Source: Clostridiales bacterium
Lineage (GTDB): Bacteria; Bacillota; Clostridia; Christensenellales; Borkfalkiaceae
Direction: 5' to 3'
Length of the DNA: 64,000 nucleotides
Assembly: GCA_015055805.1 (NCBI GenBank)
Contig: SVHN01000004.1
Span: forward strand, 62,001-126,000
The notes below the pieces were generated by a model. It made no database searches. It saw only the letters and a program-made list of their open reading frames with translations, and was not told where the DNA came from. Of the stretch, positions 7,698 to 25,327 are shown piece after piece; within the stretch, counting starts at the first letter, position 1, and the number at the start of each line of letters is the position of its first letter. The position numbers were made by a program, and so were the translations under genes.

Positions 7698-7849
7698 ACG
7701 TCACCTCTTGCTAACAATAAAATGCTATCATTTAGACAAAATAAAATTTTGTTAATTAAGATAATTTAGAGTATTTTTTTGTCAAAAAACACTAAAAAAT
7801 AAAAATTAAAAAAACATTAAAAAAATTTTGAAAAACCACTTAATTTTTG

Positions 7850-7878
7850 TTGACTTTTTTTTAGATTTATTATAGTAT
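7850..7878 (+). promoter_or_regulatory. Sigma-A-type promoter of tRNA operon
   Basis: TTGACT-N17-TAGTAT about 20 nt upstream of the first tRNA. Confidence 0.7.
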
Positions 7879-7898
7879 ATTAAGGCGTCGTGAGTGAG

Positions 7899-7974
7899 CG
7901 GGGTGTAGCGCAGTTGGTAGCGCACGTGGTTTGGGACCATGGGGTCGGGAGTTCGAGTCTCTTCACCCCGACCA
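7899..7974 (+). tRNA. tRNA-Pro (TGG)
   Basis: Cloverleaf CGGGGTG...CACCCCGACCA, anticodon TGG, encoded CCA. Confidence 0.96.
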
Positions 7975-8015
7975 TCATTGCAAAACACCAATAGTGGATT
8001 GTTCTGACGTATTGA

Positions 8016-8092
8016 GGGCCTTTAGCTCAGTTGGTTAGAGCGGTCGGCTCATAACCGATTGGTCCGCGGTTCGAGTCCGTGAAGGCCCACCA
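8016..8092 (+). tRNA. tRNA-Met (CAT)
   Basis: GGGCCTT...AAGGCCCACCA, anticodon CAT; elongator-type sequence, though CAT tRNAs need a caller to separate Met from Ile2. Confidence 0.93.
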
Positions 8093-8110
8093 TAAAAATT
8101 TAATCAATTT

Positions 8111-8187
8111 GGCCCGGTAGTACAGATGGTTAGTACGCCAGCCTGTCACGCTGGAGGTCGAGGGTTCGAGCCCCTTCCGGGTCGCCA
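8111..8187 (+). tRNA. tRNA-Asp (GTC)
   Basis: GGCCCGG...CCGGGTCGCCA, anticodon GTC. Confidence 0.96.
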
Positions 8188-8237
8188 AAAGAAAATGCTT
8201 GTAAATTTACAAGCATTTTCAAAAAAAGAACTTGTAT

Positions 8238-8313
8238 GCCTCGGTAGCTCAGTAGGTAGAGCAAGGGACTGAAAATCCCTGTGTCGGTGGTTCGATTCCG
8301 CCCCGAGGCACCA
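8238..8313 (+). tRNA. tRNA-Phe (GAA)
   Basis: GCCTCGG...CCGAGGCACCA, anticodon GAA. Confidence 0.96.
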
Positions 8314-8332
8314 AGTTAATTTTTAACACTTT

Positions 8333-8408
8333 GCTGGTGTAGCTCAACTGGCAGAGCAGCTGATTTGTAATCAGCAGGTTGCGGGTTCGATTCCAGTCAC
8401 CAGCTCCA
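8333..8408 (+). tRNA. tRNA-Thr (TGT)
   Basis: GCTGGTG...CACCAGCTCCA, anticodon TGT. Confidence 0.96.
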
Positions 8409-8424
8409 AAACTTAATATATTAT

Positions 8425-8509
8425 GGGAAGGTTCCAGAGCGGCCAAATGGAACAGACTGTAAATCTGTCGTCAGTGACTTCGGTGGTTCGAATCCACCTC
8501 TTCCCACCA
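8425..8509 (+). tRNA. tRNA-Tyr (GTA), long variable arm
   Basis: GGGAAGG...TCTTCCCACCA, anticodon GTA, class II variable arm. Confidence 0.96.
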
Positions 8510-8541
8510 AATCGTTAGCAATTCGCTAGCGATTTTTTGTT
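8509..8541 (+). terminator. Intrinsic terminator of tRNA operon
   Basis: AATCGTTAGC-aattc-GCTAGCGATT then T-rich tract. Confidence 0.85.
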
Positions 8542-8837
8542 TTTATTTTTTCGCATCATTAGTAATATATTTGATTTTTTTGAAAGTTATACATATTGAT
8601 ACGTTAATTTCATTTCTTAAATTTTATATTTATGCAGATATGTTTTTTCTAAATAAAATATTTGTTTTCTTTTTTATTACCTATTACCTATTTTTGTTAA
8701 TTTTTCACACTACTATATTTTTATGAAAAATTGGTTTTGAATAAAAATCTTGCATATTTTTATAAAATATTCATAAAAATCCTTTTTTGCTCGCATTTTG
8801 CTCGCAAACTGCTAGCAAACAGTAATAATTTCCTTAT

Positions 8838-9293
8838 TTATTTGGCTAGTTGTTTTGCAATAATTTCTGCCGTTTTTAAGTGTTTTACGTTTTCGAAGTG
8901 AGCATAAATTTTTTGTGTAACTAGCACATTTGAATGCCCAAGCCATTCCGAAATATCCGCTAGTTCTACCCCCTCTCTTCTTTGCAGTGCAGCACAACTA
9001 TGTCTTAAATCGTGAAACCTTATATGTGGCATCCCTATCTTTTTTAACACAAAATTAAATTTACCTGTAATATAGTCTGGTCTAATTAAATTGCCATTTG
9101 GTAGTACACAAATATAATCTTCAAAATCAAAATTATATGAATTACCAAAAAATTTCTTGTTCTCTTCAATTTCATTTTTAAGTAAATTTAATTTATCTTC
9201 AACACGCTTGAATAAAGGTAATGTTCTTATACTACTTCTAGTTTTGGCTCTATCTCTTTTCACTATTTGATATTTTCCATCTACCGTACTCAT
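8838..9293 (-). pseudogene. Truncated tyrosine recombinase/integrase (C-terminal catalytic half only)
   Basis: Catalytic HDLRHSCA and LGHSNVLVTQKIYAHFE retained; N-terminal arm/core-binding domains absent; 5' end abuts an oxidoreductase fragment. Confidence 0.88.
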
Positions 9294-9408
9294 AACAAAC
9301 GTTAGAATTGTTTAATATATTGCCGAGTAGCCCTATCGAGCCGTCAGTCATTCCGAACGCTGCTCCACGTTGACCTAAACCGATTATTCCGATTTTTAAC
9401 TTATTCAT
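9250..9408 (-). pseudogene. N-terminal remnant of a Gfo/Idh/MocA-type oxidoreductase fused to the integrase remnant
   Basis: Reads MNKLKIGIIGLGQRGAAFGMTDGSIGLLGNILNNSNV then out-of-frame integrase sequence and a stop. Confidence 0.75.
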
Positions 9409-9426
9409 TTTAAATCTCCTACAAAC

Positions 9427-11346
9427 TTAATGCTTTAGTACATTATAGTAATATATAGGTATTGCGCTCCAACCGTGGCATAAACTACCCGCTCCATCAA
9501 AAGCATTTGGACCTTCTAAAGTTTCCCAAGTAGCTGTTGCGCCGTTTTTAAGCATGAAACCATAATTTCCCCGAATTTCTTCAAGAATGATGTTTTCGTA
9601 CTTATCTTTGTCAGTTAAAAGCATTGCGTCGTAAAAGAATACTTTTGTTGACAGCGAACTTTCAGCAGTCTTACCGTCAATTATTTTTTTGATAATATCA
9701 TTTGCAGTTTCTTTATCTACAACACCTGAAAGCACAGCCAAACTATTTCCAAGTTGTGTGAAAATCTTATTATTATTTGAGATTGAAAACAAACCTTCCT
9801 TTTCATCAAAAAAATTAGCAAGAATTTGTTTTTTTATCTCATTTTCTTTTAAGTCAAAAGAAACGTCTATAGAAATAATTTCACAAATATTTTTGTACGC
9901 TTTAGTGGCAAGCAAATATAAACAGTTAGCAAAAATATCACTTTCTTCTTTGCAGTAAGCAGCGCCATCTGACCAGTCGTAAAAATTCCAATACATATCA
10001 TTATTCAAAATATTCCTAACAAGTCCATCTTTTATCCTAGATGCAAACCCATTCATTATTGCGGTAATCTTATCTATAATAGACTGATCTAAAACCGTAT
10101 CTTTTGAATAAATCAAATATTCGCAAACCGATATAACGTAATATAACGAAAATGACGGAATAACGAGTTCAGTATCGCTAGGCGCAGTAATTGTTAAAAG
10201 GCTATCTTTTCGTCTATCCTGAGAAAAAAGTAAAAGATTTGATTTAGCGTATTCAAAATAATCATATCCCTCAAAAGCATAATATCCTGAAAGCATTTGA
10301 TTTCTTGAGTCAAACGCATATAATCCTTGTTCTCTAAAAGGACAATCTACATAGTGCTCTAAAGCACAAAGATTTAAAGTATCAACACATAAATCATAAA
10401 TTTTAGAATCTAACTTACTAAGCGAGATTTTTCTTTTTTGAGTAAACGGATAATAAACGGGGATAAGCGACAAGATGGTAAGATCTATTTTTTCTTCAGC
10501 AAAAACTTGCAAATATCTGCAACCAATACGTAAAAAAGGATCAAAAAACTCATTTTCGCCTTCACGAGTAATAATTTCAAAGCTGTAATCATTTCCGCCA
10601 ATAAAGCGAGGAACGTTACCACTAACAATCTTTTCGCCAAAAACAACAGTTATCCGTTGTCGTTTTGGTGAATACAACTTTAACGTAGCAAGTCCGACGG
10701 TTTCCTTGCCCAAATCCACCAATATTGATCTACCATCATGCAGAACTGAAACTGATGCCGGTTTAACAACGGAACCATAGCAAAGTTTTTTATTTGGTCT
10801 AGGATAAAATTCACAGTTTTTAGATACGCATATTGCTTGAGAAAAGTTTTTAATCTCACCAATTTTGGCTTGATCTTCAGCGCTAATATCGTATAAAAAA
10901 CTCATACCAAGTTGACAGCTTACATTCTTTGCTCTTCCACATGCATAAGTTTTGCTTTGTCTAGCTAAAATTTTCTCATCGCTTATCAGTAATTTTTTAT
11001 CACCTTGCGTAAATTCAAAAATAATCCCGGCGTTTGATGGAAAATACTTTTGCGAACCTACTCCAAAATACCAAACGCTGAAAAATACGTGATTTATACC
11101 AATTTCTAAATACTCGGAAACGTCAATCTCATCATATACTTTATAATGAGGAAAATCACCATACTGATTGCTTGAAACAAATTTTCCGTTAATATATAGA
11201 GCATAATCACTATCGCATGAAACACGACAAATTATACTTTCTTTATTTGTAATATTTAGCGTACCCAAAAACTCCGCACGATCGTCTATACGGCATTCTT
11301 CTTCGCTCCATATCCATTTTGAACAATTTAAGACATTAGTATTCAT
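9427..11346 (-). CDS. Alpha-L-rhamnosidase-like glycoside hydrolase (GH78-type)
   Basis: (alpha/alpha)6-barrel-like sequence (YVDCPFREQGLYAFDSRNQMLSGYYAF; NGATATWETLEG), N-terminal beta domain; start MNTNVL at 11346. Confidence 0.82.
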   Translation of the reverse strand: MNTNVLNCSKWIWSEEECRIDDRAEFLGTLNITNKESIICRVSCDSDYALYINGKFVSSNQYGDFPHYKVYDEIDVSEYLEIGINHVFFSVWYFGVGSQKYFPSNAGIIFEFTQGDKKLLISDEKILARQSKTYACGRAKNVSCQLGMSFLYDISAEDQAKIGEIKNFSQAICVSKNCEFYPRPNKKLCYGSVVKPASVSVLHDGRSILVDLGKETVGLATLKLYSPKRQRITVVFGEKIVSGNVPRFIGGNDYSFEIITREGENEFFDPFLRIGCRYLQVFAEEKIDLTILSLIPVYYPFTQKRKISLSKLDSKIYDLCVDTLNLCALEHYVDCPFREQGLYAFDSRNQMLSGYYAFEGYDYFEYAKSNLLLFSQDRRKDSLLTITAPSDTELVIPSFSLYYVISVCEYLIYSKDTVLDQSIIDKITAIMNGFASRIKDGLVRNILNNDMYWNFYDWSDGAAYCKEESDIFANCLYLLATKAYKNICEIISIDVSFDLKENEIKKQILANFFDEKEGLFSISNNNKIFTQLGNSLAVLSGVVDKETANDIIKKIIDGKTAESSLSTKVFFYDAMLLTDKDKYENIILEEIRGNYGFMLKNGATATWETLEGPNAFDGAGSLCHGWSAIPIYYYNVLKH

Positions 11347-11567
11347 AAAATTTATCACCACACTATTTATTATATAAATTTACAAAAACCATCTTTATCA
11401 ATTTTAATATCAATTCAGGCATTTTTTTATATCAATAAAAGCGACTGCAAGATTAACGTGAGTGCGTTTTAACTTCCTGTAAAAAACATTAACGGTATCT
11501 CATAATTCGACACAAAGAGTAATTGAACGGCTAACTATTTTTTCCTTTTTGTACTCCGAAGTCAAAA

Positions 11568-12830
11568 TCAAAGATCATTTGGAACAATCGCACCAATAGA
11601 ATGAAGCATATCACAAAGGCCTTTGTATGTAATATCTGCAGCATCTGCGCATTCACGCTTCATCACCGATGCGGCAGCTCCTGCTACCTGCCCCATCGCC
11701 ATACATGTAGCCTCAACCCTTAAAGCGCTGTTAGCATACGTGTCAGAAGAAACGCATCTACCAACACAAAGAATACGGCGTGACTTTTTTGGAATCAATG
11801 CACGGTACGGGACCTTAGATACAACGTTTTCTTCATGGAAGCGTTGCTTAATCCCTCTTTCCACATGCAAATCTATCGGATAAAAAGCATAACAAACAGA
11901 ATCTGGATACACATATCCATTTATATATTCTTCAGCAGTAATAATATGCTTTCCTACAACACGTTTGGTCTCTCTTACACCAGTTTCCGATGCAAAAGTA
12001 TCAACGGTCAAATTTTCAAGCCCCTCTATTTTTCTCAAAAAGGATATAATTTTCATAATATCGTAAAGTGCATTTTTTTCAAGTTGAATTCTCCCATCTG
12101 ATGTATCCGCATCCACGCACTTAATATGCATATCGATTTTGTTTTCATTCAAATATCTTATTAGATCGTCCGAGGTAATATTCAAAGGCATCTTTGTATG
12201 ATCAAAACTTGCTTGAATACGCTCAAATATTTTTTCTTCTACAACATAACCAGAAATATGATTTTGCAGCGTAGCAGGTTGCTGCGTTGAGCTTTTCATC
12301 ATATCAAATCCAGCTAATTGGCAAAGAGTTGCATCTCCAGTTGCATCAATAGCAACAGATGCTTTTATGGCAACCATTCCGTCCTTAGTTGTAACGATTA
12401 AACTAACGCCACTTTGTTCCTCCGAGGTATAAGAAATCATAGCGTTGCAGATAATATGAACACCAGCCTCTTCACACATTTGAAATAGGACGTTGGTATA
12501 AACGAACTGATTGAGTCTTATCTGCTCATGCCAATGAAATCTTGGACGAAAGGAAATACTCGGTAAAACGGCACCGCCAAGTGACACTGTTCTTTCGATC
12601 GATTCCCAACACGGACCACTGATGATTTGCTTCCCCCAAGCAAAGAACAATCCCGGATAATTGACTCCTGCAGCAGTCATTGTTCCCCCAAGCCTGCTGT
12701 TCTTTTCAATCAATATGGTTTTGCTGCCGCTTCTTGCTGCTGAAATCGCAGCAAATACTCCCGCAGTTCCACCACCTACAACAACAACGTCAGCAGTCAA
12801 TTCTTTTGATATGACACAATTGAAATTCAT
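11568..12830 (-). CDS. FAD-dependent oxidoreductase
   Basis: Rossmann DVVVVGGGTAGVFAAISAARSGSKTILIEK; FAD_oxidored-like motifs. Confidence 0.88.
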   Translation of the reverse strand: MNFNCVISKELTADVVVVGGGTAGVFAAISAARSGSKTILIEKNSRLGGTMTAAGVNYPGLFFAWGKQIISGPCWESIERTVSLGGAVLPSISFRPRFHWHEQIRLNQFVYTNVLFQMCEEAGVHIICNAMISYTSEEQSGVSLIVTTKDGMVAIKASVAIDATGDATLCQLAGFDMMKSSTQQPATLQNHISGYVVEEKIFERIQASFDHTKMPLNITSDDLIRYLNENKIDMHIKCVDADTSDGRIQLEKNALYDIMKIISFLRKIEGLENLTVDTFASETGVRETKRVVGKHIITAEEYINGYVYPDSVCYAFYPIDLHVERGIKQRFHEENVVSKVPYRALIPKKSRRILCVGRCVSSDTYANSALRVEATCMAMGQVAGAAASVMKRECADAADITYKGLCDMLHSIGAIVPNDL

Positions 12831-13001
12831 AATGTCTCCTTAATTTTCTTATTTTTATATTATTAGCACGATCATCTCAAGTAGCAAAAGTCCATTTTTA
12901 ATCATTAAAGTATTACCTTTCCAACAAAGAAAAAACTGCTAATTGCCTTGTGTTGTAATCCTTTTACTTTAATTGATTTTGTAGAAAGTATTATTCTTAT
13001 T

Positions 13002-14252
13002 CTATAAGGTAGGTATTTCCTTAAGATATTTCCGTAATATTTCTTGTTTAAACCCGTTGTTTTCTATTATTTCCTTAAAAAAATACGCACTAGGCTTTGG
13101 CGTTCTTTCAAAGGTCTTAAAATCGCAATCCACCAAGCCAAAACGAGGCAAGAACGATTTCCACTCGTAGTTATCGATTAGCGACCAGTATAAGTACCCT
13201 TTTACGTCAACGCCCATTCTAATACTTTCTTCTAACGCTTTTAAGTATAGCGTCAGCCACACGATACGGAAACGGTCGTCGTTACAACTACATCCGTTTT
13301 CAGTTATTATAACCGTTTTATCTCTTAATCTAGATAAATTCGCCATAACACATTCGGGATTAAACTCGTTCAAATAGAACTCTTTGTCAATAAAACTCAT
13401 AAAACTAGTGTCGTATTTTTTGCCCGCACCACGCATATTTCGGCAATCCACGAGATGCCGTACGTAAGTATTTATCGACCAGTAATCAACGCAATCTTTA
13501 ACTTCTTTATTATATATCACGTCTCTAAATGGATAAACTATTTCGCCCGTTCTTATTGCGTGGAAAAAGTATTCGTTAACACACATATCCATATGTTTAG
13601 CAAGATATTTATCCCACTCGTCGTGCGCACGGTAAGGTTGATAAAACACTAAGGCGTGCGCTGAACTTACGGGCGCATTAGAGTATTTTTTTATTATATG
13701 ATAACCCCTTGCGTGATACACGATTGAATAGGTCTGAAAATTAGCGTCTCCACCCATATTCGATTCGTTTAATACGTTCCAGTAATCGACGTACGGCGCA
13801 ATCTTCGGCACTATATATTCAACGTACCTTTCAAAATATTTTAAGTTTTCCAGTTTGTTAAAATTACCGATATTTTCAAACCAAGTAGGATAAGAGATAT
13901 GCACGAGCGTTGCGAATACTTTTATGCCTTTTTCTTTCATTTTTGCGAACATTTTCACATAATGCTCTGTCGCTTCTTTATTAAACTCGCCTTCTTTCGG
14001 CTCAATTCTACTCCACTCAACACTAGTCCTAAACGCTTGTTGCCCTAACGACGTAACTAAATCGATATCTTTTTCATATAATTCATAACTATTGCACGCA
14101 AGCCCTGATTTTTCAGGCCAGTCCCCGTCGATTTCCATTTGGTAACGTTGACTGTTAACGTTGTTGCCTTCTACTTGATGTCCTGCATATCCAGAACCCC
14201 AAAAAAAATCTTTTGGAAATGAAAAATCTTTAAGTGAAAAAATATCAAACAT
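13002..14252 (-). CDS. Glycoside hydrolase family 1 (beta-glucosidase-like)
   Basis: FFWGSGYAGHQVEG, SVEWSRIEPKEGEFN, acid/base region WNVLNES, nucleophile ITENG. Confidence 0.9.
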   Translation of the reverse strand: MFDIFSLKDFSFPKDFFWGSGYAGHQVEGNNVNSQRYQMEIDGDWPEKSGLACNSYELYEKDIDLVTSLGQQAFRTSVEWSRIEPKEGEFNKEATEHYVKMFAKMKEKGIKVFATLVHISYPTWFENIGNFNKLENLKYFERYVEYIVPKIAPYVDYWNVLNESNMGGDANFQTYSIVYHARGYHIIKKYSNAPVSSAHALVFYQPYRAHDEWDKYLAKHMDMCVNEYFFHAIRTGEIVYPFRDVIYNKEVKDCVDYWSINTYVRHLVDCRNMRGAGKKYDTSFMSFIDKEFYLNEFNPECVMANLSRLRDKTVIITENGCSCNDDRFRIVWLTLYLKALEESIRMGVDVKGYLYWSLIDNYEWKSFLPRFGLVDCDFKTFERTPKPSAYFFKEIIENNGFKQEILRKYLKEIPTL

Positions 14253-14276
14253 ATCTTTTTCTCCGTTTTTACTTTT

Positions 14277-14924
14277 TTAATCTAAATTTAGTATAAATGT
14301 ATATAGCATTTTTGCTATTCTTTCGTGACCCAAATCGCTTGGATGCAAACCATCTGGTAAATATATTTTTTTGCTTGCATCAATAAAGGGCGTTATATTA
14401 CTTTTACCCCATAAATCAAGCACTGGTATAGAATAAGTTTCACAGAGTTCTATTTCCGCCTTAACGTAATCTTTTAGCGGTTTACAAGGCAAACCTATTT
14501 CGTTAACGGTTAAATTTTCACTAGACCTATGTAGCGGTGTTAAAAAAATTATTCTTGCCTTTGGGTATTTAGCGTACAATTTAGAAACTAAAAGATTTAA
14601 CGCACCGCAAAAACTTTTATCGTCGTTATCCGAAAAACTCCCAAACGGTGCGTCACCGTGTCCAAAATCGTTAGTTCCGCCAAACACGATAACGTAATCG
14701 GCGGTTTCGTTCATTTTATCTACTCTTTCAGGAAAACTATCTCCAAAATTACTAACCACAGGATCTAACTGCCTTGCCACACTCGTTCCACTTATACCGT
14801 AATTGAAAACTTTTGCTCCGCTAATTTTCGAAAAAACTTCCACAAAACATTTTTCTTTACAACTCGCACCAATGCCTTCGGTTATACTGTCGCCTAAAAA
14901 TAATACTTCTTTGTTCTTTAGCAC
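14277..14924 (-). CDS. SGNH/GDSL hydrolase
   Basis: FLGDSITEGIGAS, VIVFGGTNDF, DGLHPSDLGHERIA blocks. Confidence 0.9.
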   Translation of the reverse strand: MLKNKEVLFLGDSITEGIGASCKEKCFVEVFSKISGAKVFNYGISGTSVARQLDPVVSNFGDSFPERVDKMNETADYVIVFGGTNDFGHGDAPFGSFSDNDDKSFCGALNLLVSKLYAKYPKARIIFLTPLHRSSENLTVNEIGLPCKPLKDYVKAEIELCETYSIPVLDLWGKSNITPFIDASKKIYLPDGLHPSDLGHERIAKMLYTFILNLD

Positions 14925-14957
14925 GCTAATTTCTCCTTGAATATAATACTAAAATAT

Positions 14958-14993
14958 ATTTTTAGCGAATATAAAAATATATTCGCTAAAAAT
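14958..14993. terminator. 16-bp perfect inverted repeat, terminator-like
   Basis: ATTTTTAGCGAATATA-aaaa-TATATTCGCTAAAAAT. Confidence 0.7.
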
Positions 14994-15013
14994 GTTTCTA
15001 ATTAAATATAACT

Positions 15014-15604
15014 TTATGCTCTACTTCCATGATAAATATCAAATGAATCAATATAGAAAGTATCGCCAGCTTCAGCCCCTTCTATTTGAACTGCCAAAGA
15101 CAATCTTATTATGGGGAATGTTTCGGCTAATGTAGGTAATTTAGATTTATCTAGTTCAACTTCATAATATCGCCACGAAGTGTCACTTGCTTGTATAACA
15201 GATGCGTCTTCTAAACTATTTAATGTATTGACACCACGAACAACGGCTCCATTTCCCCAAAGCCTAAGGTTAACATTAAGCGTTAACTTCTTGCCAGTAG
15301 TATTTTTCACCCAGAAACCTACGTATGTTTTTTCAGTATCACTAATGTCTCGCCACACACTACGGTTAGGATTATATATAGAATGAACAACTCCTCGTGG
15401 TATAATTAAGCAATCGCCCTCTTTGTGATTATAGTGAACACCATTTATTTCATGGCTTATTTCTCCACTGATTATATAGACAACTTCACAATATGGATGA
15501 TTATGTTTGCTAACATTTTCCGCATAGGTTTGATGCATACTTATGCCTATAGTTTCTAAAATTAAACCAAGTTCTTTTTTAATATCTTTTTTCATTTTCA
15601 ACAC
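15014..15604 (-). CDS. Chimeric ORF: AraC-type cupin domain joined to a CBM-like beta-sandwich; HTH missing
   Basis: Residues about 1-85 cupin (HNHPYCEVVYIISGEISHEINGVHYNHKEGDCLIIPRGVVHSIYNPN); remainder resembles extracellular domain (WRYYEVELDKSKLP...GDTFYIDSFDIY). Confidence 0.65.
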   Translation of the reverse strand: MLKMKKDIKKELGLILETIGISMHQTYAENVSKHNHPYCEVVYIISGEISHEINGVHYNHKEGDCLIIPRGVVHSIYNPNRSVWRDISDTEKTYVGFWVKNTTGKKLTLNVNLRLWGNGAVVRGVNTLNSLEDASVIQASDTSWRYYEVELDKSKLPTLAETFPIIRLSLAVQIEGAEAGDTFYIDSFDIYHGSRA

Positions 15605-15792
15605 TACATTAATAATTTTTGAATTGTAAGTATAACTTATTCAATTATTTTTTATCTTTTGTAAATTTGACATGTATAGTGTATATTTGGCAGTCGCCTC
15701 ACCAACCAAAACGCACTTTAATATCCCTACTAGCACCCATAGTTCGTCATATTTAAAATATAAGTACTATCACTACATCTTATCACGTTCTA

Positions 15793-15848
15793 ATTATATA
15801 CTCTTGTAATTAAATACTCAATACCCCTAGTTGACTATAAAATGCTCT
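15793..15848 (-). promoter_or_regulatory. Promoter plus conserved upstream operator (copy A)
   Basis: TTGAGT-N17-TATAAT; upstream block AGAGCATTTTATAGTCAACTAGGGGTA matches copy B at 18885-18940 with identical spacing. Confidence 0.6.
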
Positions 15849-15951
15849 AAAAGGTTTTTTTTGCAAAAAACTGTCTTTCTTTTTTATAGAAAAAGAACAA
15901 ATTAGCATTACGCAAATTTGTTCTTTCAATTAAATTTTATTATCTATTTTG

Positions 15952-16663
15952 TTAGTAAAAAGTTTTAAGCCAGTTAAGCATTTCTACGGAAAACAAATTC
16001 CAACTTTGAAATCCTTTTGTAAACACAGTTTCTCCAGTTTCTGGATGGTAAAATTCATGCATCTCTCCAGTTTTCATTAAATCATCACCGAAAAGTTTAA
16101 CTGTTTTATACGCTAAATCCTTCGCTTCATTTATATATCCATATTTTTTCATTCCTTCGTAAACAACCCAGTTACACAATCCCCAAACAGGACCCAACCA
16201 ACAAGATGGGTTAATATTGAATAAATCTCAAAAATGAGTTAACATAAGGTTTCAACCAAGTAAAATCTCCAATCTTTTTACTTATATAAAGAGCTCTCTG
16301 TGCCAAAATAGGCTTATGAAGATTAGATTTTTCGCCATCTTTAAATTCAGGACGACAAACCTTGGGCGTTATAAAAATAGGTATTCTTCCATCAGCAAAC
16401 TGATGATGAATAAAGTTAAATAAACAACCTTTTTCATATTCTATGATATCTGAATCATCACAAATGTGTTCAAGTGCTTGTTCTATAAACCAACTATCCC
16501 AATCCCATAGACTATTAGAATAACCACTTCCTGGCACTATAAATTTATATTTCAAAATACCATCTGGCTCCCTAAATAAATCTACGTAATGCTTTTTTGC
16601 GTATGAGTTTATAAGTTTTTCATAATTATTAAAGCTTTGTTTATCCATAATAATTTGCCACAA
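15952..16663 (-). pseudogene. Disrupted GH63/MGH1-like glucosidase
   Basis: N-terminal part (GSGYSNSLWDWDSWFIEQALEH) and C-terminal part (NPSCWLGPVWGLCNWVVYEGMKKYGY) in different frames with the central region missing. Confidence 0.75.
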
Positions 16664-16733
16664 CGATTTTAAAGATATCGCTTTTGCTCTCCCTTTTTTA
16701 CATTCATCTAAAATAACAATGTTTCTATTTTTA

Positions 16734-17765
16734 TTAGCCTTTCATTAAAAGTTCCATAACGTACATTTCAAGACCTTCAAAGTCCCTATTCTTAACGCAT
16801 TCATCTCTAAATGCATAATCGAACTTTTCTGCTTTTTCTTCAAGCATCTTGAATATCTTCAAACTGTTTTCCAAATGCTTAAAACTGTCTTCATCAACAG
16901 TTGTTCTCATCGCCTTTACGTCTAATCCAACATATTCACCCTTGCTTCCATATCCATTTTCCAAAAGCACTTTAACTTGGTTAAAAGCAGCACGTAAATT
17001 TTCAACGCCGAAACTTTTATCTTGGTCGTATTTAATGCTGTTTTGATCATTTAAATGTACGGTAAATAGTTTGTCAAACGCTAATGCAAATCCTATTTCG
17101 TGAGCAGGATCAAGACCGGCAAGAATTGCATGAGCACTTTCTAAATTTCCGCCTACACGCTTAGGATCGATAGTTGCTGCTGAAATAGCCATAACATGTC
17201 CCATTGTTCCACATATAGAACGGTCTATTGGTTCGTTAGGTTTAGGTTCAATACATACTCTTATAGTCTTGTCATATTCAAGCATCTTATTTATTGCTTC
17301 TACAAGCATTTTTGTTGCCCAAACTGGACTTTTACTTTCTGCGCAGAGCGTTCCTTCTCGTGCCAACCACAAAACAAGCAAATCAGTACCTAGTTCTTTT
17401 GCAATATCAATAGCCCTACACGCTCTCCACAATGCATATTCTCTATCTGATTCTTTAGTTGACATAAACCCACCGTCTATTGTGCGCTTATCCATCCATA
17501 ATCTAGGTGCGACAAACTCTGCTTTGAGATCGTATTTATCAAGTAACGCCTTAACTTTTCTAGCTTCTTTTTTTATTTCTGCATCACTTAAATCATTTAA
17601 ATTTGGAACGACTTCATCATCATGGAATTGTACTGCATCGAAACCAATTTCTTTAAATCTTTTAAACTTTTCCTCCATTGCGATAGGCTTTCTCGTTGCT
17701 GGTCCATACGCATCTGCACCTTCGTGCACGTTCCATGGTCCTACTGAAAATTTAAATTTGCTCAT
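16734..17765 (-). CDS. Xylose isomerase-like TIM-barrel sugar isomerase
   Basis: 343 aa; xylose isomerase-like FKFSVGPWNVHEGADAYGPATR, CIEPKPNEPIDRS, VGLDVKAMRT. Confidence 0.8.
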   Translation of the reverse strand: MSKFKFSVGPWNVHEGADAYGPATRKPIAMEEKFKRFKEIGFDAVQFHDDEVVPNLNDLSDAEIKKEARKVKALLDKYDLKAEFVAPRLWMDKRTIDGGFMSTKESDREYALWRACRAIDIAKELGTDLLVLWLAREGTLCAESKSPVWATKMLVEAINKMLEYDKTIRVCIEPKPNEPIDRSICGTMGHVMAISAATIDPKRVGGNLESAHAILAGLDPAHEIGFALAFDKLFTVHLNDQNSIKYDQDKSFGVENLRAAFNQVKVLLENGYGSKGEYVGLDVKAMRTTVDEDSFKHLENSLKIFKMLEEKAEKFDYAFRDECVKNRDFEGLEMYVMELLMKG

Positions 17766-17788
17766 TTTTATTTCTCCTTAATTTTTTA

Positions 17789-18832
17789 TTATAATTTTAT
17801 CAATTTTCTTTCTTCTGTACTTTTATACGCTGCGGCAATTACTTTTTGTACGTGCAATGCATCTGAAGCCGGAACAACTAGAGGTTTGTCATTTAAGATT
17901 GAGTCAGCAAAACTTTCAACCTCTCTAGTATACATGTTTCCAAACTCACCTTTTAGTTCCTCTCCTTTGATTTCAGAATGGTTTTGTGTTGCGCTGTATC
18001 CTACGTTTTCTTCGACGTACGCTGCGTTTAATCTTCCACCGTCTACTTGACCTATTATGGTATCCCCCATAAGCCTTCCCTTTGTCCCAAAAAATTCAAG
18101 TCGCCACTTTGCTATTTCGTCTGGTATATTAAAGTTTGTTTGCACCACACATTGTGCGCCGTTTTCTAGTTTGAGTATCACGGTTGAACTATCTTCTACG
18201 TCATAACCGAATACAACCGTATCATTGAAGGCTCCCACTTCTACTACTCGGCTTCCAGTTATATATTCTATAAGATCAATACAATGAACTCCCATATCCA
18301 TAAGAGAGCCACCGCCAGACTTTGATTTTACCAGTCTCCAATTACCTGCGTCTTGCGGTAACCACAACGTAAATTGTGAATATCCACTTACTATTTGTCC
18401 TATTTTACCTTCTTCTACGGCTTTTTTCATGTTCATAACGTGCGCACCAAACCGCATCATAAATCCAGCCGCTACCTTTACGCCTTTGTTTTCACAATAC
18501 TGTAATAGTTTTTCTCCCTCTTCTATATCCATAGAAATTGGTTTTTCTATTAGAATATGTTTACCATTATCTGCCGCAAGCATTGCTTGTTTGCAGTGAA
18601 AAACTACTGGCGATGCTATGTATACTGCATCTACTTCAGGATTCTTAACCAAGTCTTCAGCGTTTGTATACGCGTACTTTGCATTATATTTTTTTCTTAG
18701 TTTTTCCGAAAGTTCCGCATCTATTTCCATCACGGCAACAACTTCAACGTTATTTGCAAGCATCATTCCTGGTAGTGTTCTTCTGTCCGCTATTCCACCT
18801 GCACCAATTACACCAAAACGTAGCTTTTTCAT
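17789..18832 (-). CDS. Gfo/Idh/MocA family oxidoreductase
   Basis: N-terminal GVIGAGGIADRRTLPG; HILIEKPISMDIEE; GGGSLMDMGVHCIDL. Confidence 0.93.
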   Translation of the reverse strand: MKKLRFGVIGAGGIADRRTLPGMMLANNVEVVAVMEIDAELSEKLRKKYNAKYAYTNAEDLVKNPEVDAVYIASPVVFHCKQAMLAADNGKHILIEKPISMDIEEGEKLLQYCENKGVKVAAGFMMRFGAHVMNMKKAVEEGKIGQIVSGYSQFTLWLPQDAGNWRLVKSKSGGGSLMDMGVHCIDLIEYITGSRVVEVGAFNDTVVFGYDVEDSSTVILKLENGAQCVVQTNFNIPDEIAKWRLEFFGTKGRLMGDTIIGQVDGGRLNAAYVEENVGYSATQNHSEIKGEELKGEFGNMYTREVESFADSILNDKPLVVPASDALHVQKVIAAAYKSTEERKLIKL

Positions 18833-18884
18833 TATTTACTCCTTTTCATTACTTTAGAATAAAAATTTATCACTATACCTTTAT

Positions 18885-18940
18885 ATTTTAAGCGTATATG
18901 TGTATTTATTCAATATCTCTAATTGTCTTTAAAATGCTCC
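18885..18940 (-). promoter_or_regulatory. Promoter plus conserved upstream operator (copy B)
   Basis: TTGAAT-N17-TAAAAT; GGAGCATTTTAAAGACAATTAGAGATA upstream. Confidence 0.6.
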
Positions 18941-19086
18941 AAACAGTTTTTTTATCACAAAAAGCATTGATAAAGTATTTTTTTACTTATCTATTAAAAA
19001 CAATAATTTCATCTCAAGACACAAAAAAGTATAAACAGGCAATTATCAATAAATTACATTTTGGACAGATAAAATTTGTCATTTTT

Positions 19087-19278
19087 CTAACTTTTTACAC
19101 TTGGAAATAAAAATCTTATTATATAACAAACCTTTTTCTTTGCAACTATCCCCTCTAAATTTTCTTTTTTTGCTAGTTCAAAGAACGCTTTTCCTTTTTC
19201 TTCTATCTTATACTCTTCCGGCTTAAACTCTCCGCTCATACTTTCGGTATATACACCAGACCAAAACTTATACTTCAT
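19087..19278 (-). pseudogene. Possible remnant of an ATP-dependent DNA ligase (LigD-type)
   Basis: Segment IEEKGKAFFELAKKENLEGIVAKKK resembles LigD 'EG.IVAK' ligase region; flanks do not continue the family. Confidence 0.45.
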
Positions 19279-19371
19279 TTATAACTGTAAGCCATTATTT
19301 TCTCCTTTTATTTTAGTATAAGCATTTAAAATAAAAATAAAGGTCTGCTTTAGGCAAACCTTTACAGTCTA

Positions 19372-19566
19372 TTATTCTTCTATTTTAAACTTTGTTGTTA
19401 GCACTTGAACACTGTCTTTCTCTTCTAAATATTTAATAAAATTACGTATTGCAGAAACATCTGATTTCTTTCTTTTGACTGTGTAAAAATTTAAAAAATT
19501 AATATAACTTGTTTTCATATTTAAATTTAAGTCAAAACCATTACCAATTATAAAAGTAGCTTTCAT
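19372..19566 (-). pseudogene. N-terminal remnant of AbiH-family abortive infection protein
   Basis: MKATFIIGNGFDLNLNMKTSYINFLNFY matches AbiH N-terminal signature; only 64 aa. Confidence 0.6.
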
Positions 19567-19743
19567 TTGTAAAAAACTCTTTTTTATTTATATTACCAAA
19601 AATTTACAGACTAGTCAATATTAAAAAATAATTGTTATACCTAGAATCTAAATAAATCACATTATATTAAATTGTTAAATTTGCTCGCAAAAATTCTAGA
19701 AAAATTCCGACAAAAGGAACTTGACTACTCAACGCACATTCAA

Positions 19744-19781
19744 AAACGGGCGTTTTTACACAAAAAACACCCGTTTTTTAG
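19744..19781. terminator. Terminator-like hairpin
   Basis: AAAACGGGCGTTTTTacacaaAAAACACCCGTTTTTT. Confidence 0.65.
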
Positions 19782-19818
19782 CATTTTTCACATATCTACA
19801 CGAATTTTTAAGCCCCTA

Positions 19819-19861
19819 AAAATCCCTGTGTCGGTGGTTCGATTCCGCCCCGAGGCACCAA
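19819..19861 (+). repeat. 43-nt direct repeat of tRNA-Phe 3' half (copy of 8272-8314); candidate att site
   Basis: AAAATCCCTGTGTCGGTGGTTCGATTCCGCCCCGAGGCACCAA identical in both places. Confidence 0.85.
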
Positions 19862-19905
19862 ATCGTTAGTTGCAACTAAAAAGGTTGCGACTGACGATTT
19901 TTTGT
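19861..19905 (+). terminator. Intrinsic terminator following tRNA-Phe fragment
   Basis: AATCGTTAGTTGCAAC-taaaaag-GTTGCGACTGACGATTTTTTG. Confidence 0.75.
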
Positions 19906-20002
19906 TGCTTGTATAGTAAACCACCTGCTATGCGGGTGGTGGGAAAAGCCTACGGCTATGGACATAAAAAGGCTCTTTGTCAAATGTTGAGGTGTTTTTC
20001 TT

Positions 20003-21040
20003 TTATACACCAACATTTATTTTAGACCCCATTAAATCAAACTTCCCTTCCTCATATATATCGCATATTAATTTTTGAATTTTCAACGCTTCTTCACCGC
20101 TTATAAACGGCTCCCTATTATTTTCGACCGCATCATAAAAATCAGCTATTTGGCGAATATGTTGGAACCCCCAGTAATCTTTACCGCCTTCATAATCAAT
20201 GTTGCCAACGTCGGTTTTAGCCGTTAAAACCCTACCATCGTTAAAAGTTATTATAGCATCGTCATAACTCATAATAACCTTACCATTTTCGCAGAGAAGT
20301 CTTATTTCAATAGGTTCGTCTATGCCATAGTTATTCATTGCCCAAAACGCTAGCGTTGCGCCGTTTTTATAGCGAATAAAACCTTCGCCCGTATCGTCAA
20401 CTTCCATAATCGAGTGCCCACGATTTGCTAGGTGGGCTTGTACCGATATAGGTTGGTCGTTAATAAACCAGTTCGCAAGGTCGATAGAGTGTATTGCTTG
20501 GTCAATAATTACACCACCGCCCTCTTTATCCCAAGTACCTTTCCAGTCGGAAAGCGAATAGTATTCGTCGGGTTTACACCACGTCAACACAACTCTTGCA
20601 GATATTACCTTGCCTAAATTTCCGTTTTCAAGATTTTCCTTTACGAGTTTTGAAGTATCGTTGTACCTACATTGAAAAATAATGCCGTATTTTAGACCTT
20701 TTTCCTTTGCTAGTTTTACGTTCTCTATAGCATCTTCATATTTTATCGCCATAGGCTTTTCACAAAGCACGTTTACACCGTGTTCTAACGCGTATTTAGA
20801 AATTATAGGGTGCAAATAATGTGGAACGCATACGTGAACCACGTCAAGTTTTTCCTTTTCGATAAGTTCTTTATAATCGTAGTATGCCTTGCAAGCATAT
20901 TTATTCGCCGCTTTATCCGCTCTATCCTTTTTTACATCGCATACAGCAACAATTTGAGCGTTATTTAGGTGATGCGCGCTAGTTGCGTGCATGGTAAAAA
21001 TATTACCGCAACCGATTATCGCTACTTTAAGCATTTTCAA
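20003..21040 (-). CDS. Gfo/Idh/MocA family oxidoreductase
   Basis: VAIIGCGNIFTMHATSAHHL; NVLCEKPMAIKYED; GGGVIIDQAIHSIDLANW. Confidence 0.93.
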   Translation of the reverse strand: MKMLKVAIIGCGNIFTMHATSAHHLNNAQIVAVCDVKKDRADKAANKYACKAYYDYKELIEKEKLDVVHVCVPHYLHPIISKYALEHGVNVLCEKPMAIKYEDAIENVKLAKEKGLKYGIIFQCRYNDTSKLVKENLENGNLGKVISARVVLTWCKPDEYYSLSDWKGTWDKEGGGVIIDQAIHSIDLANWFINDQPISVQAHLANRGHSIMEVDDTGEGFIRYKNGATLAFWAMNNYGIDEPIEIRLLCENGKVIMSYDDAIITFNDGRVLTAKTDVGNIDYEGGKDYWGFQHIRQIADFYDAVENNREPFISGEEALKIQKLICDIYEEGKFDLMGSKINVGV

Positions 21041-21998
21041 TCTCCTTTAGTACAAACTCGAGCGACTTTGCCGCATCTTTTAAGGTCGCCTTTTCTATCT
21101 TTTCACCAGATTTTATTCTGTCGGTAAAATATACTAGTTCGTTGTAGTATCCGCCCAAATCAGAAATATTTCCGCCCTTATAACCGCCTGTTAGTTCTTT
21201 CTTTTCTATTTTAATTTCGCTTGTACCGTCAGCAGTATAGCAGATAAATTTTCCGCCGGCATTTTCTACCGTTGCCTTTTCAAATACAACTCTAAAAGTC
21301 GCTTCAAATGGATAACTTTCGGGCAAGCCCCACGTTCCCTCAACGCCTACCACGAAGTCTTTGTATTGCATTATTGTATTTATATAAGAATTTTTCTCAC
21401 CTATAACGTTTTTAATACTTGTAAACTTTTCAGGTTCACCAAACACAGACAAAACGTAGTCGGTATCGTGGACGTGTAGATCCTGTGCCGCACCGCCCGA
21501 ACGCCTTGCGTCAAGTAACCAGTCTTGCCAACCCCAGGTAGGAGTTGGGCTTATTCTTCTAAAGTTAGCGTTTACAACTTTTCCGTATTTGCCACTTTCT
21601 ATTATCTTTTTAAGTTCAACGTATTCGTCCCAAAACCTTATTACTTGACCAACTTGAACCTGACAACCGGTTTCTTTTGACTTTTCAATCATAAGCTTTG
21701 CTTGTTCGATGTTTAACGCAACGGGTTTTTCAACAAAAAGATATTTAACTTTTTCCATTGCTTTAATAGCGTATTCAGCGTGAAGATAAGTGGGAAGACA
21801 AATATCAATAACGTCAACGTCGGCGTTGTTGATTAAATCTAAGCCGTCGGAAAAAATTTCTGCGCCGTTTGCTAGTTCTTCTGCCTTTTCTCTTCTCACG
21901 TCAGCGACCGCACCAAGTATTACGCCGTCAATATTTTTATAACAGTTTGCGTGCATAGCACCCATAAAACCACAACCGATTAAACCTACTTTTATCAT
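21027..21998 (-). CDS. Gfo/Idh/MocA family oxidoreductase
   Basis: VGLIGCGFMGAMHANCY; YLFVEKPVALNIEQA; SGGAAQDLHVHDTDYV. Confidence 0.93.
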   Translation of the reverse strand: MIKVGLIGCGFMGAMHANCYKNIDGVILGAVADVRREKAEELANGAEIFSDGLDLINNADVDVIDICLPTYLHAEYAIKAMEKVKYLFVEKPVALNIEQAKLMIEKSKETGCQVQVGQVIRFWDEYVELKKIIESGKYGKVVNANFRRISPTPTWGWQDWLLDARRSGGAAQDLHVHDTDYVLSVFGEPEKFTSIKNVIGEKNSYINTIMQYKDFVVGVEGTWGLPESYPFEATFRVVFEKATVENAGGKFICYTADGTSEIKIEKKELTGGYKGGNISDLGGYYNELVYFTDRIKSGEKIEKATLKDAAKSLEFVLKEIENA

Positions 21999-21999
21999 A

Positions 22000-22839
22000 C
22001 TATTTTCTCCTTAAAATTTTATCCATTGAATTTGAAGTGTTGTAAATAATAGTTTCAGAATAATGCTTATAATTTGGTATCATTTCAGCAGATACCCAAC
22101 CATCGTAACCTATTTCATTAAGAGCATTCATGACTTCGGGATAGTTGACGTCTCCTGCTAGTAAATCTACAAACCCGTGCAGTCCCCCCGCCTGCAATCT
22201 GTAATCTTTGAAGTGCACTTTCTTTATTCTCTTGCCTAAAATTCTAACCCAGTCTTCGGGATAAGAGCAGTATAATGTATTACCTATATCAAGATAACTT
22301 CCCACGTAATCGCTGTCAATTTTATCAATAAAGTCACGCATTTCCATAGGCGACAATAAAAACTTGTTCCAAACGTTTTCTAAGCCAATGTTAACTTTTG
22401 CTTGTTCAGCGTAGCACTTTAACTCGTTAACTCCTTCTAACGCTCTGTCATATACCACGTCATATGCAACCTTTTTTTCGGGCATAGAAAATTCCACGTT
22501 CACCGCACCAGGAATAACTAGCACTGTATCCGCCCCTAACCCTTTTGCCGTATCGATCTGTTTTTTTATCATATCTTTTGCTTTCTGGCGGATATTTACG
22601 TCATCGTCGCTCAATCTGTAATTCCAACATAGTCCGCACGACAAGCTGTAAAGGGATAACCCTAAGTCGTCCGCAATGCTTTTTATTTCTTTTATCTCTT
22701 TATCGCTAGCGTTTATCGACAACTCACCGTCGCCGTTAAGCGCAAGTTCTACCCCCTCAAAACCTGCGTCTTTTGCAAGAATGAGGTTGTCTTTAATGGT
22801 GGAACTAGGAAACGACCATATATTAATGCCTTTTTTCAT
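22000..22839 (-). CDS. Sugar phosphate isomerase/epimerase (xylose isomerase-like TIM barrel)
   Basis: GINIWSFPSS...GLENVWNKFLLSPMEMRDFID...VGSYLDIGNTLYCSYPEDW; start MKKGINIW at 22839. Confidence 0.9.
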   Translation of the reverse strand: MKKGINIWSFPSSTIKDNLILAKDAGFEGVELALNGDGELSINASDKEIKEIKSIADDLGLSLYSLSCGLCWNYRLSDDDVNIRQKAKDMIKKQIDTAKGLGADTVLVIPGAVNVEFSMPEKKVAYDVVYDRALEGVNELKCYAEQAKVNIGLENVWNKFLLSPMEMRDFIDKIDSDYVGSYLDIGNTLYCSYPEDWVRILGKRIKKVHFKDYRLQAGGLHGFVDLLAGDVNYPEVMNALNEIGYDGWVSAEMIPNYKHYSETIIYNTSNSMDKILRRK

Positions 22840-22891
22840 AAAATTCTCCTTGATTTTGTTCTTTAATTTTGATATAATCATTATAGGCTAA

Positions 22892-22910
22892 ACTGTTCGG
22901 CTTGAACAGT
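22892..22910. promoter_or_regulatory. Inverted-repeat operator candidate ACTGTTC-N5-GAACAGT
   Basis: Perfect 7-bp inverted repeat overlapping the -35 position of a minus-strand TATAAT in the divergent intergenic region. Confidence 0.55.
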
Positions 22911-22969
22911 CATTTTTTTATCCTACAAGTTCAAAATCGTCCACAATGAATTTATAAGGAAAACTTAAT

Positions 22970-23851
22970 ATGAAAGCAACTTACATAAAAACACAGTTAA
23001 AAACTATAATCAACGTGTCTAAAATAGTTACCATACATTACTACGAGTTTGACAAAACTTTTGATTTCAAGGGTGAAAAGCACGACTTTTGGGAAATGGT
23101 ATACGTCGATAAAGGACAAGTGGAAGTTCAAAGCGAAAAAGAAACTATTATATTAAAGCAAGGGGAAATAATTTTTCATAAGCCGAACGAGTTCCACGCA
23201 ATAAAAGCGCACGAGTCATCTCCTAACTTTTTCGTTATATCGTTCGTGTGTTCTTCCCCGTCAATGAAATATTTTGAAAAACACCATACCGTTCTAAACA
23301 AAACGCTAAAGCCGTTTATCTCGTCGCTAATAAGCGAATCCGAAAGCACCTACGTTATCCCGAAAAACGATACACAGCTTAAAAAACTCGACAAGAAAGA
23401 ACAAGCGGTTATAGGCGGAGAACAACTGATAAAAACCTATTTAGAACAACTTTTAATTTTGCTAATAAGGAACGTGTTAAAAATAGGCAGTTCGGAAATT
23501 TTTCCTAGCAAAGTAAGTATGGAAAACCACCTTGTCGTATCTATAAAAAATTATGTTGAAGATAATGTTTATAAGCCGTTTAGAATTTTAGACCTTTGTA
23601 ATTCTCTTGGGTACAGCAAGAGCTATTTAAGTAAGATTTTTCAAAGTCAAACGGGCAACACTATTGCAAGCTTTGCGACTGAAATAAAGATTAAAAAAGC
23701 CAAGCAGTTAATAAGGGACGGCGAATATAATTTTTCGCAGATATCAGACCTATTGTCCTTTGATAATCCACAGTATTTTTCAAGGGTATTTAAGCACGTG
23801 ACCAACATGACGCCAACAGAATTTAAGTTGTCGCTAAATTTTAACATATAA
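22970..23851 (+). CDS. AraC family transcriptional regulator (cupin + HTH)
   Basis: Cupin N-terminus; C-terminal double HTH (FSQISDLLSFDNPQYFSRVFKHVTNMTPTEFK). Confidence 0.93.
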   Translation: MKATYIKTQLKTIINVSKIVTIHYYEFDKTFDFKGEKHDFWEMVYVDKGQVEVQSEKETIILKQGEIIFHKPNEFHAIKAHESSPNFFVISFVCSSPSMKYFEKHHTVLNKTLKPFISSLISESESTYVIPKNDTQLKKLDKKEQAVIGGEQLIKTYLEQLLILLIRNVLKIGSSEIFPSKVSMENHLVVSIKNYVEDNVYKPFRILDLCNSLGYSKSYLSKIFQSQTGNTIASFATEIKIKKAKQLIRDGEYNFSQISDLLSFDNPQYFSRVFKHVTNMTPTEFKLSLNFNI

Positions 23852-23877
23852 AGGATAGTTTAAAATGTAATACAACA

Positions 23878-23912
23878 AAAAAGTCGTGAGAACAATCAAT
23901 GTTTTCACGACT
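23878..23912. terminator. Convergent terminator
   Basis: AAAGTCGTGAGAACA-atcaa-TGTTTTCACGACTTT. Confidence 0.75.
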
Positions 23913-23932
23913 TTAATTTAATTCAAATTTAG

Positions 23933-25327
23933 TTATATAACTATAACGCCAAACTGGTCAAGTATTCCCGAAACAAGTATTATAAATATGCAAATCGGAG
24001 CAACGTATTTAATTATAACGTTGAAATATGTGTTTAAATTCTTATTTTTATCTATACCTATTTCTTTTGGCATTATATTTTTATCAATAAACCACCCGGC
24101 AATCACGCAAGTTATTATCGATACTATCGGCAACAACACGTAATTTGACAAAATATCAAAGCTGTCAAGTATATCTTTACCGAGTATTCTTACGTCACCA
24201 AGCACACCATATCCGAGCGAAGAAAGTGATCCCAAAACTAAAACGATCGAGAACACAATAACGCACGCAGTAACTCTCTTCATTCTGCCGTCTTCACAAA
24301 GAACTGCTACTATCGCCTCAACTAGCGACACAGACGAGGTTACAGCCGCAAACAATACTAAAATAAAAAATATTACACCTATAACCCTACCGCCTGGTAG
24401 TTCGTTGAATATGTTAGTAAGCTGAATAAACATAAGGCTTGGACCTGGCTTTGCGAGAGCATTTGAAGGATCAACAGAAAACGCAAAAACCGCAGGAATA
24501 ACAATTAATGATGCGACGATTGCAAAAAGACTATCAAATATAGCTATTTGCATTGAAGAACTTTTAATACTAACGTCTTTCTTCATATATGAGCCGTACG
24601 TAATCATAATACACATGCCGATTGACATTGAGTAGAAAAGCTGTCCTAACGCGCCGAGAACCGTCTCAAACCCGAAATTACCAAAATCAGGTATAAGAGT
24701 ATACCCTACGCCTTCCCACGCGCCCTTTTGGCACAAAACGTACACCATCAAAAACAAAGAAATGATCGCTAAAGCAGGCATTAATATTTTGCTCATTTTT
24801 TCAATGCCCTTCTGCACGCCAAAAGCAACTATAACAACGGTTATAACTGCAAAAATAAAGAAAAACAAAAGTGGCTGCCAAGTATCTGAAACGAAACCAC
24901 CAAAAAACGCCGACGTGTCAACACCACTACCAACAAGCCCTTCAGCACCGATTAGGAACGACCAGCCGTATTTTACAACCCAGCCACCTATTACACAATA
25001 ATACGGAACAATTAATATTGGAACTACTACACACAGATAACCAAACCATTTAAATTTGGGATTGAGTTTAGTAAACGCGCCGATAACGCTTTTCCCTGTG
25101 TTACGACCTATTGCAATTTCAAGCATTAAAAGCGTTAGTCCAAAAAACACGGCAAGCAATATGTAAGTAAGTATAAATATACCCCCACCATAACGTGCGG
25201 TCAAATATGGAAAACGCCAAAGATTGCCAAGCCCAACAGCAGAACCTGCCGCAGACAAAACAAAACCGAGTTTGCCTGAAAACCCTAGGTGTTTTTTTTC
25301 GGTAAATTGATTTATTTGTTCTTCCAT
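23933..25327 (-). CDS. Sodium-dependent neurotransmitter symporter family (NSS) transporter
   Basis: LGFVLSAAGSAVGLGNLWRFPYL signature; about 11 TM segments. Confidence 0.94.
   Translation of the reverse strand: MEEQINQFTEKKHLGFSGKLGFVLSAAGSAVGLGNLWRFPYLTARYGGGIFILTYILLAVFFGLTLLMLEIAIGRNTGKSVIGAFTKLNPKFKWFGYLCVVVPILIVPYYCVIGGWVVKYGWSFLIGAEGLVGSGVDTSAFFGGFVSDTWQPLLFFFIFAVITVVIVAFGVQKGIEKMSKILMPALAIISLFLMVYVLCQKGAWEGVGYTLIPDFGNFGFETVLGALGQLFYSMSIGMCIMITYGSYMKKDVSIKSSSMQIAIFDSLFAIVASLIVIPAVFAFSVDPSNALAKPGPSLMFIQLTNIFNELPGGRVIGVIFFILVLFAAVTSSVSLVEAIVAVLCEDGRMKRVTACVIVFSIVLVLGSLSSLGYGVLGDVRILGKDILDSFDILSNYVLLPIVSIITCVIAGWFIDKNIMPKEIGIDKNKNLNTYFNVIIKYVAPICIFIILVSGILDQFGVIVI

Follow-up and report, generated by a model that had tools for sequence, protein, structure and literature searches.

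Why does the 3′ half of a tRNA gene recur 11.5 kb away from the intact gene? The window, the whole stretch of 64,000 nucleotides analysed here, holds a plus-strand tRNA operon of conserved order, Pro-Met-Asp-Phe-Thr-Tyr (7899–8509), in which ARAGORN places an intact tRNA-Phe at 8238–8313, tRNA-Thr(UGU) at 8333–8408 and tRNA-Tyr(GUA) at 8425–8509. A direct-repeat comparison confirmed the exact 43-nt copy that a preliminary description of this DNA had noticed (8272–8314 and 19819–19861), a match far beyond chance for a 64-kb window. Allowing one mismatch, the repeat extends to 46 nt (8269–8314 versus 19816–19861, 45/46 identical) and is the top entry among direct repeats of 7800–24500; the single difference turns anticodon G34 of tRNA-Phe into A in the fragment. 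The shared stretch begins at tRNA-Phe nt 32, where a crossover in the anticodon loop would place it, and stops one base beyond CCA. Anticodon-centred att sites of this kind are a recognised class (Islander class A, PMC4383910). The intact gene and its 3′ fragment, in the same orientation on the plus strand, flank a candidate element whose left core (attL, 8269–8314) lies within tRNA-Phe and whose right core (attR, 19816–19861) is the fragment.

The preliminary description offered two explanations for the intact tRNA-Thr and tRNA-Tyr that lie inside the putative element: that the element had carried tRNAs, or that the fragment came from a different tRNA-Phe locus. We searched the genome assembly (1.73 Mb in 20 contigs, about 96% complete) and found one intact tRNA-Phe plus the fragment, the remaining matches being 78–80% identical and covering part of the gene. 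Since the assembly holds no second tRNA-Phe, we rejected a foreign locus as the source; carried tRNAs are the better supported explanation. An order-wide search with the core pattern returned, among the matches listed, mostly apparently normal tRNA-Phe genes, with double matches in a few genomes.

Between the cores lies the tyrosine integrase remnant that had been reported there, a minus-strand C-terminal stub at 8838–9293 (homology 8841–9302; PF00589, E = 2e-11). It is 70–72% identical to residues about 264–422 of a complete 424-aa integrase in a congeneric MAG from goat reticulum (G024, contig JAFSLQ010000056.1), compared with 44% for the next-best integrase in the genus and 52% in a sample of the order. 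G024 also has a tRNA-Phe fragment starting at nt 32, followed by tRNA-Thr, tRNA-Tyr, a terminator with the AATCGTTAG stem and the full integrase, which points towards the tRNAs. In the window, the right end of the element (19742–19815, plus strand), which carries a strong terminator hairpin (fold z −7.1), has its homologue in the sequence flanking the fragment in G024: the two genomes are 77% identical over 122 bp including the core, and the flank alone outscores 500/500 shuffles.

The two ends are further linked by a short motif, TTGCTCGCA, found three times in the whole 64-kb window and only at the ends of the element. Two tandem copies 11 bp apart (8787 and 8798; 8787–8806, plus strand) would be left (P′) arm sites of the integrase, and a single copy (19681–19689, plus strand), 135 bp left of the right core, would be the right (P) arm site. 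A 19-kb stretch of G024 (L034) has three copies in the same layout, order and strand, with its arm about 145 bp left of its core. Given the repeat boundary, the identity to the G024 integrase, the right-end homology and the shared arm motif, we regard 8269–8314 and 19816–19861 with high confidence as the attL/attR pair of an element to which the integrase stub belongs; the preliminary proposal of a tyrosine-recombinase att site thereby stands. A chance duplication or an assembly artefact at the 46-bp repeat has in its favour that the source is a MAG and that tRNA-Phe is a frequent contig break in the genus. We consider this explanation highly improbable, because one 153-kb contig holds both copies and because G024, an independent genome, shows the boundary, a homologous flank and the arm sites again. 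Contigs of six congeners (G024:C47, G001:C3, G031:C21, G015:C5, G025:C35 and G007:C23) break off immediately 5′ of tRNA-Phe or in the gap separating it from tRNA-Thr; these breaks may reflect strain-variable insertions or the repeated tRNA sequence.

Related integrases are found at other tRNA genes. G315 has a sister integrase with tRNA-Leu(UAA) on one side and, about 2 kb away on the other, an exact copy of Leu nt 31–86, a footprint that again runs from the anticodon loop to the 3′ end, starting at nt 31 where the Phe footprint starts at nt 32. The island that carries it is about 2 kb long (L178 13340–15412). Many other relatives of the integrase adjoin the 3′ ends of tRNA-Ser, -Leu, -Arg, -Lys or -Asn genes. 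In G283, where tRNA-Leu lies beside a sister integrase, we found no Leu, Cys, Gly or Val fragment in the 35.9 kb examined.

The position of tRNA-Thr and tRNA-Tyr is harder to explain. Most of the congeners examined share the gene order Phe-Thr-Tyr, mostly after Pro-Met-Asp, and it is also seen in several further families of the order. Thr and Tyr are therefore the ancestral downstream genes, and a plain insertion into tRNA-Phe would leave the fragment preceding them. In the window they instead come after the intact tRNA-Phe, and the fragment directly precedes a terminator (19860–19904, plus strand, fold z −8.1) where Thr-Tyr would be expected. No Thr-Tyr remnant was found at attR. In both the window genome and G024, Thr-Tyr sit between the core and the integrase, and this shared placement suggests that the two genes (8333–8509, plus strand) are borne by the element. 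The two element ends are joined through core-Thr-Tyr in G024 and lie 11.5 kb apart in the window, as expected of joined and integrated forms of one element. Judging from these two MAGs, we somewhat favour the reading that Thr-Tyr travelled with the element, a weaker step than the identification of the att pair.

The form in which G024 holds the element bears on this reading. The ends of its contig share no terminal overlap that would indicate circularity, so the joined ends may reflect a circle or a tandem array, or else a repeat that collapsed in assembly; such a collapse could by itself explain the junction. We looked for the host right junction of G024 through synteny with G001 (manA-frk), and the genes fell on two separate contigs of G024, neither of which has a tRNA close to them. 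A search of genome contigs returned only JAFSLQ010000056 from G024 itself and a remote Idiomarina match, and the viral contigs searched held no relative of the integrase and no exact match to the core.

An ordinary att pair without tRNA cargo is the rival to be weighed most carefully. An insertion would have split Phe from Thr-Tyr, which were restored later by recombination with incoming or duplicated DNA. Core-Thr-Tyr of G024 is 249/253 identical to the native copy in G001, with divergence just after tRNA-Tyr, and the spacers in both the window genome and G024 resemble those of host relatives; carriage by the element therefore implies that this stretch was captured recently or homogenised. 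In their canonical form, moreover, such elements carry the tRNA 3′ fragment alone (PMC4383910). Against these points, restoration would require parallel repair, with Thr-Tyr ending up between core and integrase in two species whose integrases are only 70% identical, and no junction of core and left arm was seen. We judge this history unlikely, although it retains more weight than the other alternatives.

A second alternative invokes two elements, the integrase belonging to one inserted after tRNA-Tyr and the Phe fragment being the right end of a separate Phe-targeting element. The integrase does lie beside Tyr in both genomes, and the G024 order of fragment followed by Thr-Tyr resembles a plain attR. 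Yet the arm motif is common to both ends and occurs nowhere else in the window, the window fragment lacks Thr-Tyr after it, and the gap between tRNA-Tyr and integrase (about 330–365 bp in the window and G024) exceeds the 56–155 bp measured in several relatives. tRNA-Tyr as the integration target was itself rejected, as no tRNA-Tyr 3′ fragment was found right of the integrase. Two independent elements are thus quite improbable. In G016, a 21-nt copy of the tRNA-Tyr 3′ end and a second terminator lie about 130–220 bp downstream of tRNA-Tyr (L134 2425–2445).

The sequences that follow tRNA-Tyr and the fragment offer a clue to where a second Thr-Tyr may have gone. After tRNA-Tyr stands a terminator hairpin, AATCGTTAG...CTAGCGATTTTTTG (8509–8538, plus strand, fold z −4.2), whose AATCGTTAG stem recurs in G024, in G063 and after the right core; the other congeners inspected have unrelated hairpins. 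G063 has the ATCGTTAG / AATCGTTAG terminator without an integrase, which counts against carriage by the element. The terminator of the fragment and the end of tRNA-Tyr have CACCAAATCGTTAG in common, which in the fragment runs from the Phe end directly into post-tRNA-Tyr sequence (82% over 39 nt). This is the pattern that a deletion between the like Phe and Tyr ends would give.

We also asked where the host sequence resumes. In G011 and G031, a symporter-like transporter gene, the first gene of the conserved right flank (23933–25327 in the window, minus strand), follows the tRNA operon after about 100–150 bp. One extra gene, purC-like as we read its sequence, separates it from tRNA-Tyr in G063, and in G003 and G029 the place is taken by different inserts, about 4.3 and 5.7 kb long; G001, G002 and G030 have wholly different genes downstream of the operon. 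Because relatives join tRNA-Tyr to the 23933 gene, we place the host boundary some 4 kb to the right of the fragment, not at 19861. By this comparison the interval from 8510 to about 23930 is wholly variable, and the fragment lies inside it, away from its edge. The empty site anticipated in the preliminary description, joining 8314 to 19861, was not seen: none of the congeners compared, all of other species, joins a Phe core to 19862, the operon being intact and its downstream region variable. Such a junction would delete tRNA-Thr and tRNA-Tyr and is not to be expected; its lack fits a deletion of the displaced Thr-Tyr. Nor did we find what had been named as evidence against an att site, a like arrangement preserved between syntenic flanks in relatives that lack an empty site; the congeners have empty or differently occupied sites.

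Right of the fragment, a sequence of about 70 bp (19901–19971, plus strand) recurs with 94–98% identity at five other places in the genome. Four of these copies lie no more than about 130 bp from the start of a contig, and the sequence probably forms the end of an insertion sequence present in several copies. The variable region continues to the right of the element with more accessory sugar genes and an AraC-type regulator (20003–23851). This raises the possibility of tandem accretion, in which the fragment would be the junction of two related elements and 19862–23930 the remnant of the second, without Thr-Tyr and integrase. The fragment is followed by the type of terminator that also stands left of the integrase, sugar genes occur in both halves and the island extends to 23930. 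However, we found no second integrase, third core or arm motif right of 19861, and 20003–23851 is more simply explained as an old host region. Tandem accretion seems to us, if anything, a shade less probable than two independent elements.

The interior of the element appears decayed. The integrase stub abuts what may be the 5′ stub of a Gfo/Idh/MocA-type gene (9312–9408, minus strand), as judged from short matches (E = 0.01–0.02) and from its similarity to other Gfo/Idh starts. That the stub runs into these apparent first codons suggests, on weak short matches, one large deletion, and the junction is likely the scar left when the N-terminal part of the integrase was lost together with any transfer genes. 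The genes that follow on the minus strand (9427–18832) are for carbohydrate use: rhamnosidase-like, FAD oxidoreductase, GH1, GDSL, cupin, a broken glycosidase, TIM-barrel isomerase and Gfo/Idh. Among them, 15014–15604 joins an AraC-type cupin N-terminus to a carbohydrate-binding-like C-terminus, possibly a deletion fusion, and a trehalase/MGH1-type glycosidase split into two ORFs (15952–16663) is probably a pseudogene. Gene annotation and profile matches revealed no conjugation genes among the genes of the window element. In G024, pieces of a VirB4 transfer ATPase lie beyond the integrase, separated by a reverse-transcriptase ORF. In this stretch (L034 15696–19177) the ORF between the VirB4 pieces is of the reverse-transcriptase/HNH type, and the arrangement looks like a group II intron inserted in the transfer ATPase gene of an ICE. 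The other side of the G024 fragment holds about 27 kb rich in carbohydrate genes, from our reading of the ORFs.

Taken together, the locus is probably a decayed integrative, and probably conjugative, element in tRNA-Phe whose attP held the Phe 3′ half, Thr, Tyr and a terminator, the displaced Thr-Tyr having been lost. Following this logic, attP would have had the order right arm, Phe 3′ half, Thr, Tyr, terminator, left arm and integrase. A crossover in the anticodon loop of tRNA-Phe would insert the element in mid-operon and rebuild the end of Pro-Met-Asp-Phe-Thr-Tyr as an unbroken operon, while the Phe 3′ half, Thr and Tyr of the host would be displaced to the far side of the element. The displaced Thr-Tyr would later be lost, probably via deletion between the like Phe and Tyr 3′ ends (CACCAA), and a large internal deletion would remove the integrase N-terminus and any transfer genes. 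In invoking Thr-Tyr carriage, both deletions and arm-site function, this scheme goes beyond the observed repeat, boundary and end homology.

The element resembles Islander class A tDNA islands and ICEs (PMC4383910) in having an intact tRNA at one end and a 3′ fragment at the other, an internal tyrosine integrase beside the intact copy, and a footprint from the anticodon loop to the 3′ end. It differs from that class in the two further tRNA genes between core and integrase, and in a target inside a tRNA operon and not at its end. ICEMh1-like elements (PMC6861422) and ICEBs1 in trnS-leu2 (PMC3715440) integrate in a tRNA-Leu gene, and in ICEMh1 it is the anticodon loop that is directly repeated, one of the two tRNA copies being functional and the other partial (PMC6861422). 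Carriage of downstream operon tRNAs, as in the window element, is not described in the portions of these two reports available to us; trnS-leu2 is reported there to be non-essential (PMC3715440), whereas the window Thr and Tyr have no second copy in the assembly. According to part of a further report, the integrase of the ICEclc-like ICEPni1 also adjoins a tRNA operon (Gly/Glu), with an 18-bp repeat of the tRNA-Gly 3′ end (PMC7466150); it differs from the window element in its short 3′-end repeat and in an operon with several copies of tRNA-Gly. tRNA array units, as excerpted, are likewise mobile DNA with tRNA genes, but form large arrays and a putative antidefence system (PMC12803027), whereas in the window it would be the tail of an operon that was copied at the att site. 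A limited search of the open-access literature returned no description of downstream operon tRNAs borne on attP.

An element that inserts in a tRNA gene restores that gene. The fate of downstream genes in the same tRNA operon seems seldom discussed, at least in the excerpts we drew on, and a multi-gene attP, if it exists, would be a simple way to restore the operon. For islands more generally, an att fragment need not coincide with the host boundary, and fragment-based island finders must allow for intact tRNAs within an element. The search of the assembly found the Thr(UGU) and Tyr(GUA) genes between the two cores to be its sole full-length copies, so precise excision between the cores would remove them; with the integrase broken, this state is probably fixed. 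We consider it an evenly balanced question whether there is a family of such elements that target mid-operon and carry the operon tail, so that essential tRNAs are never cut from their promoter. After decay of the displaced originals, as in the window genome, the host would depend on the tRNA genes of the element, and excision between the cores would be lethal. If so, loss of the displaced copies would make the end of the element the source of indispensable host tRNAs.
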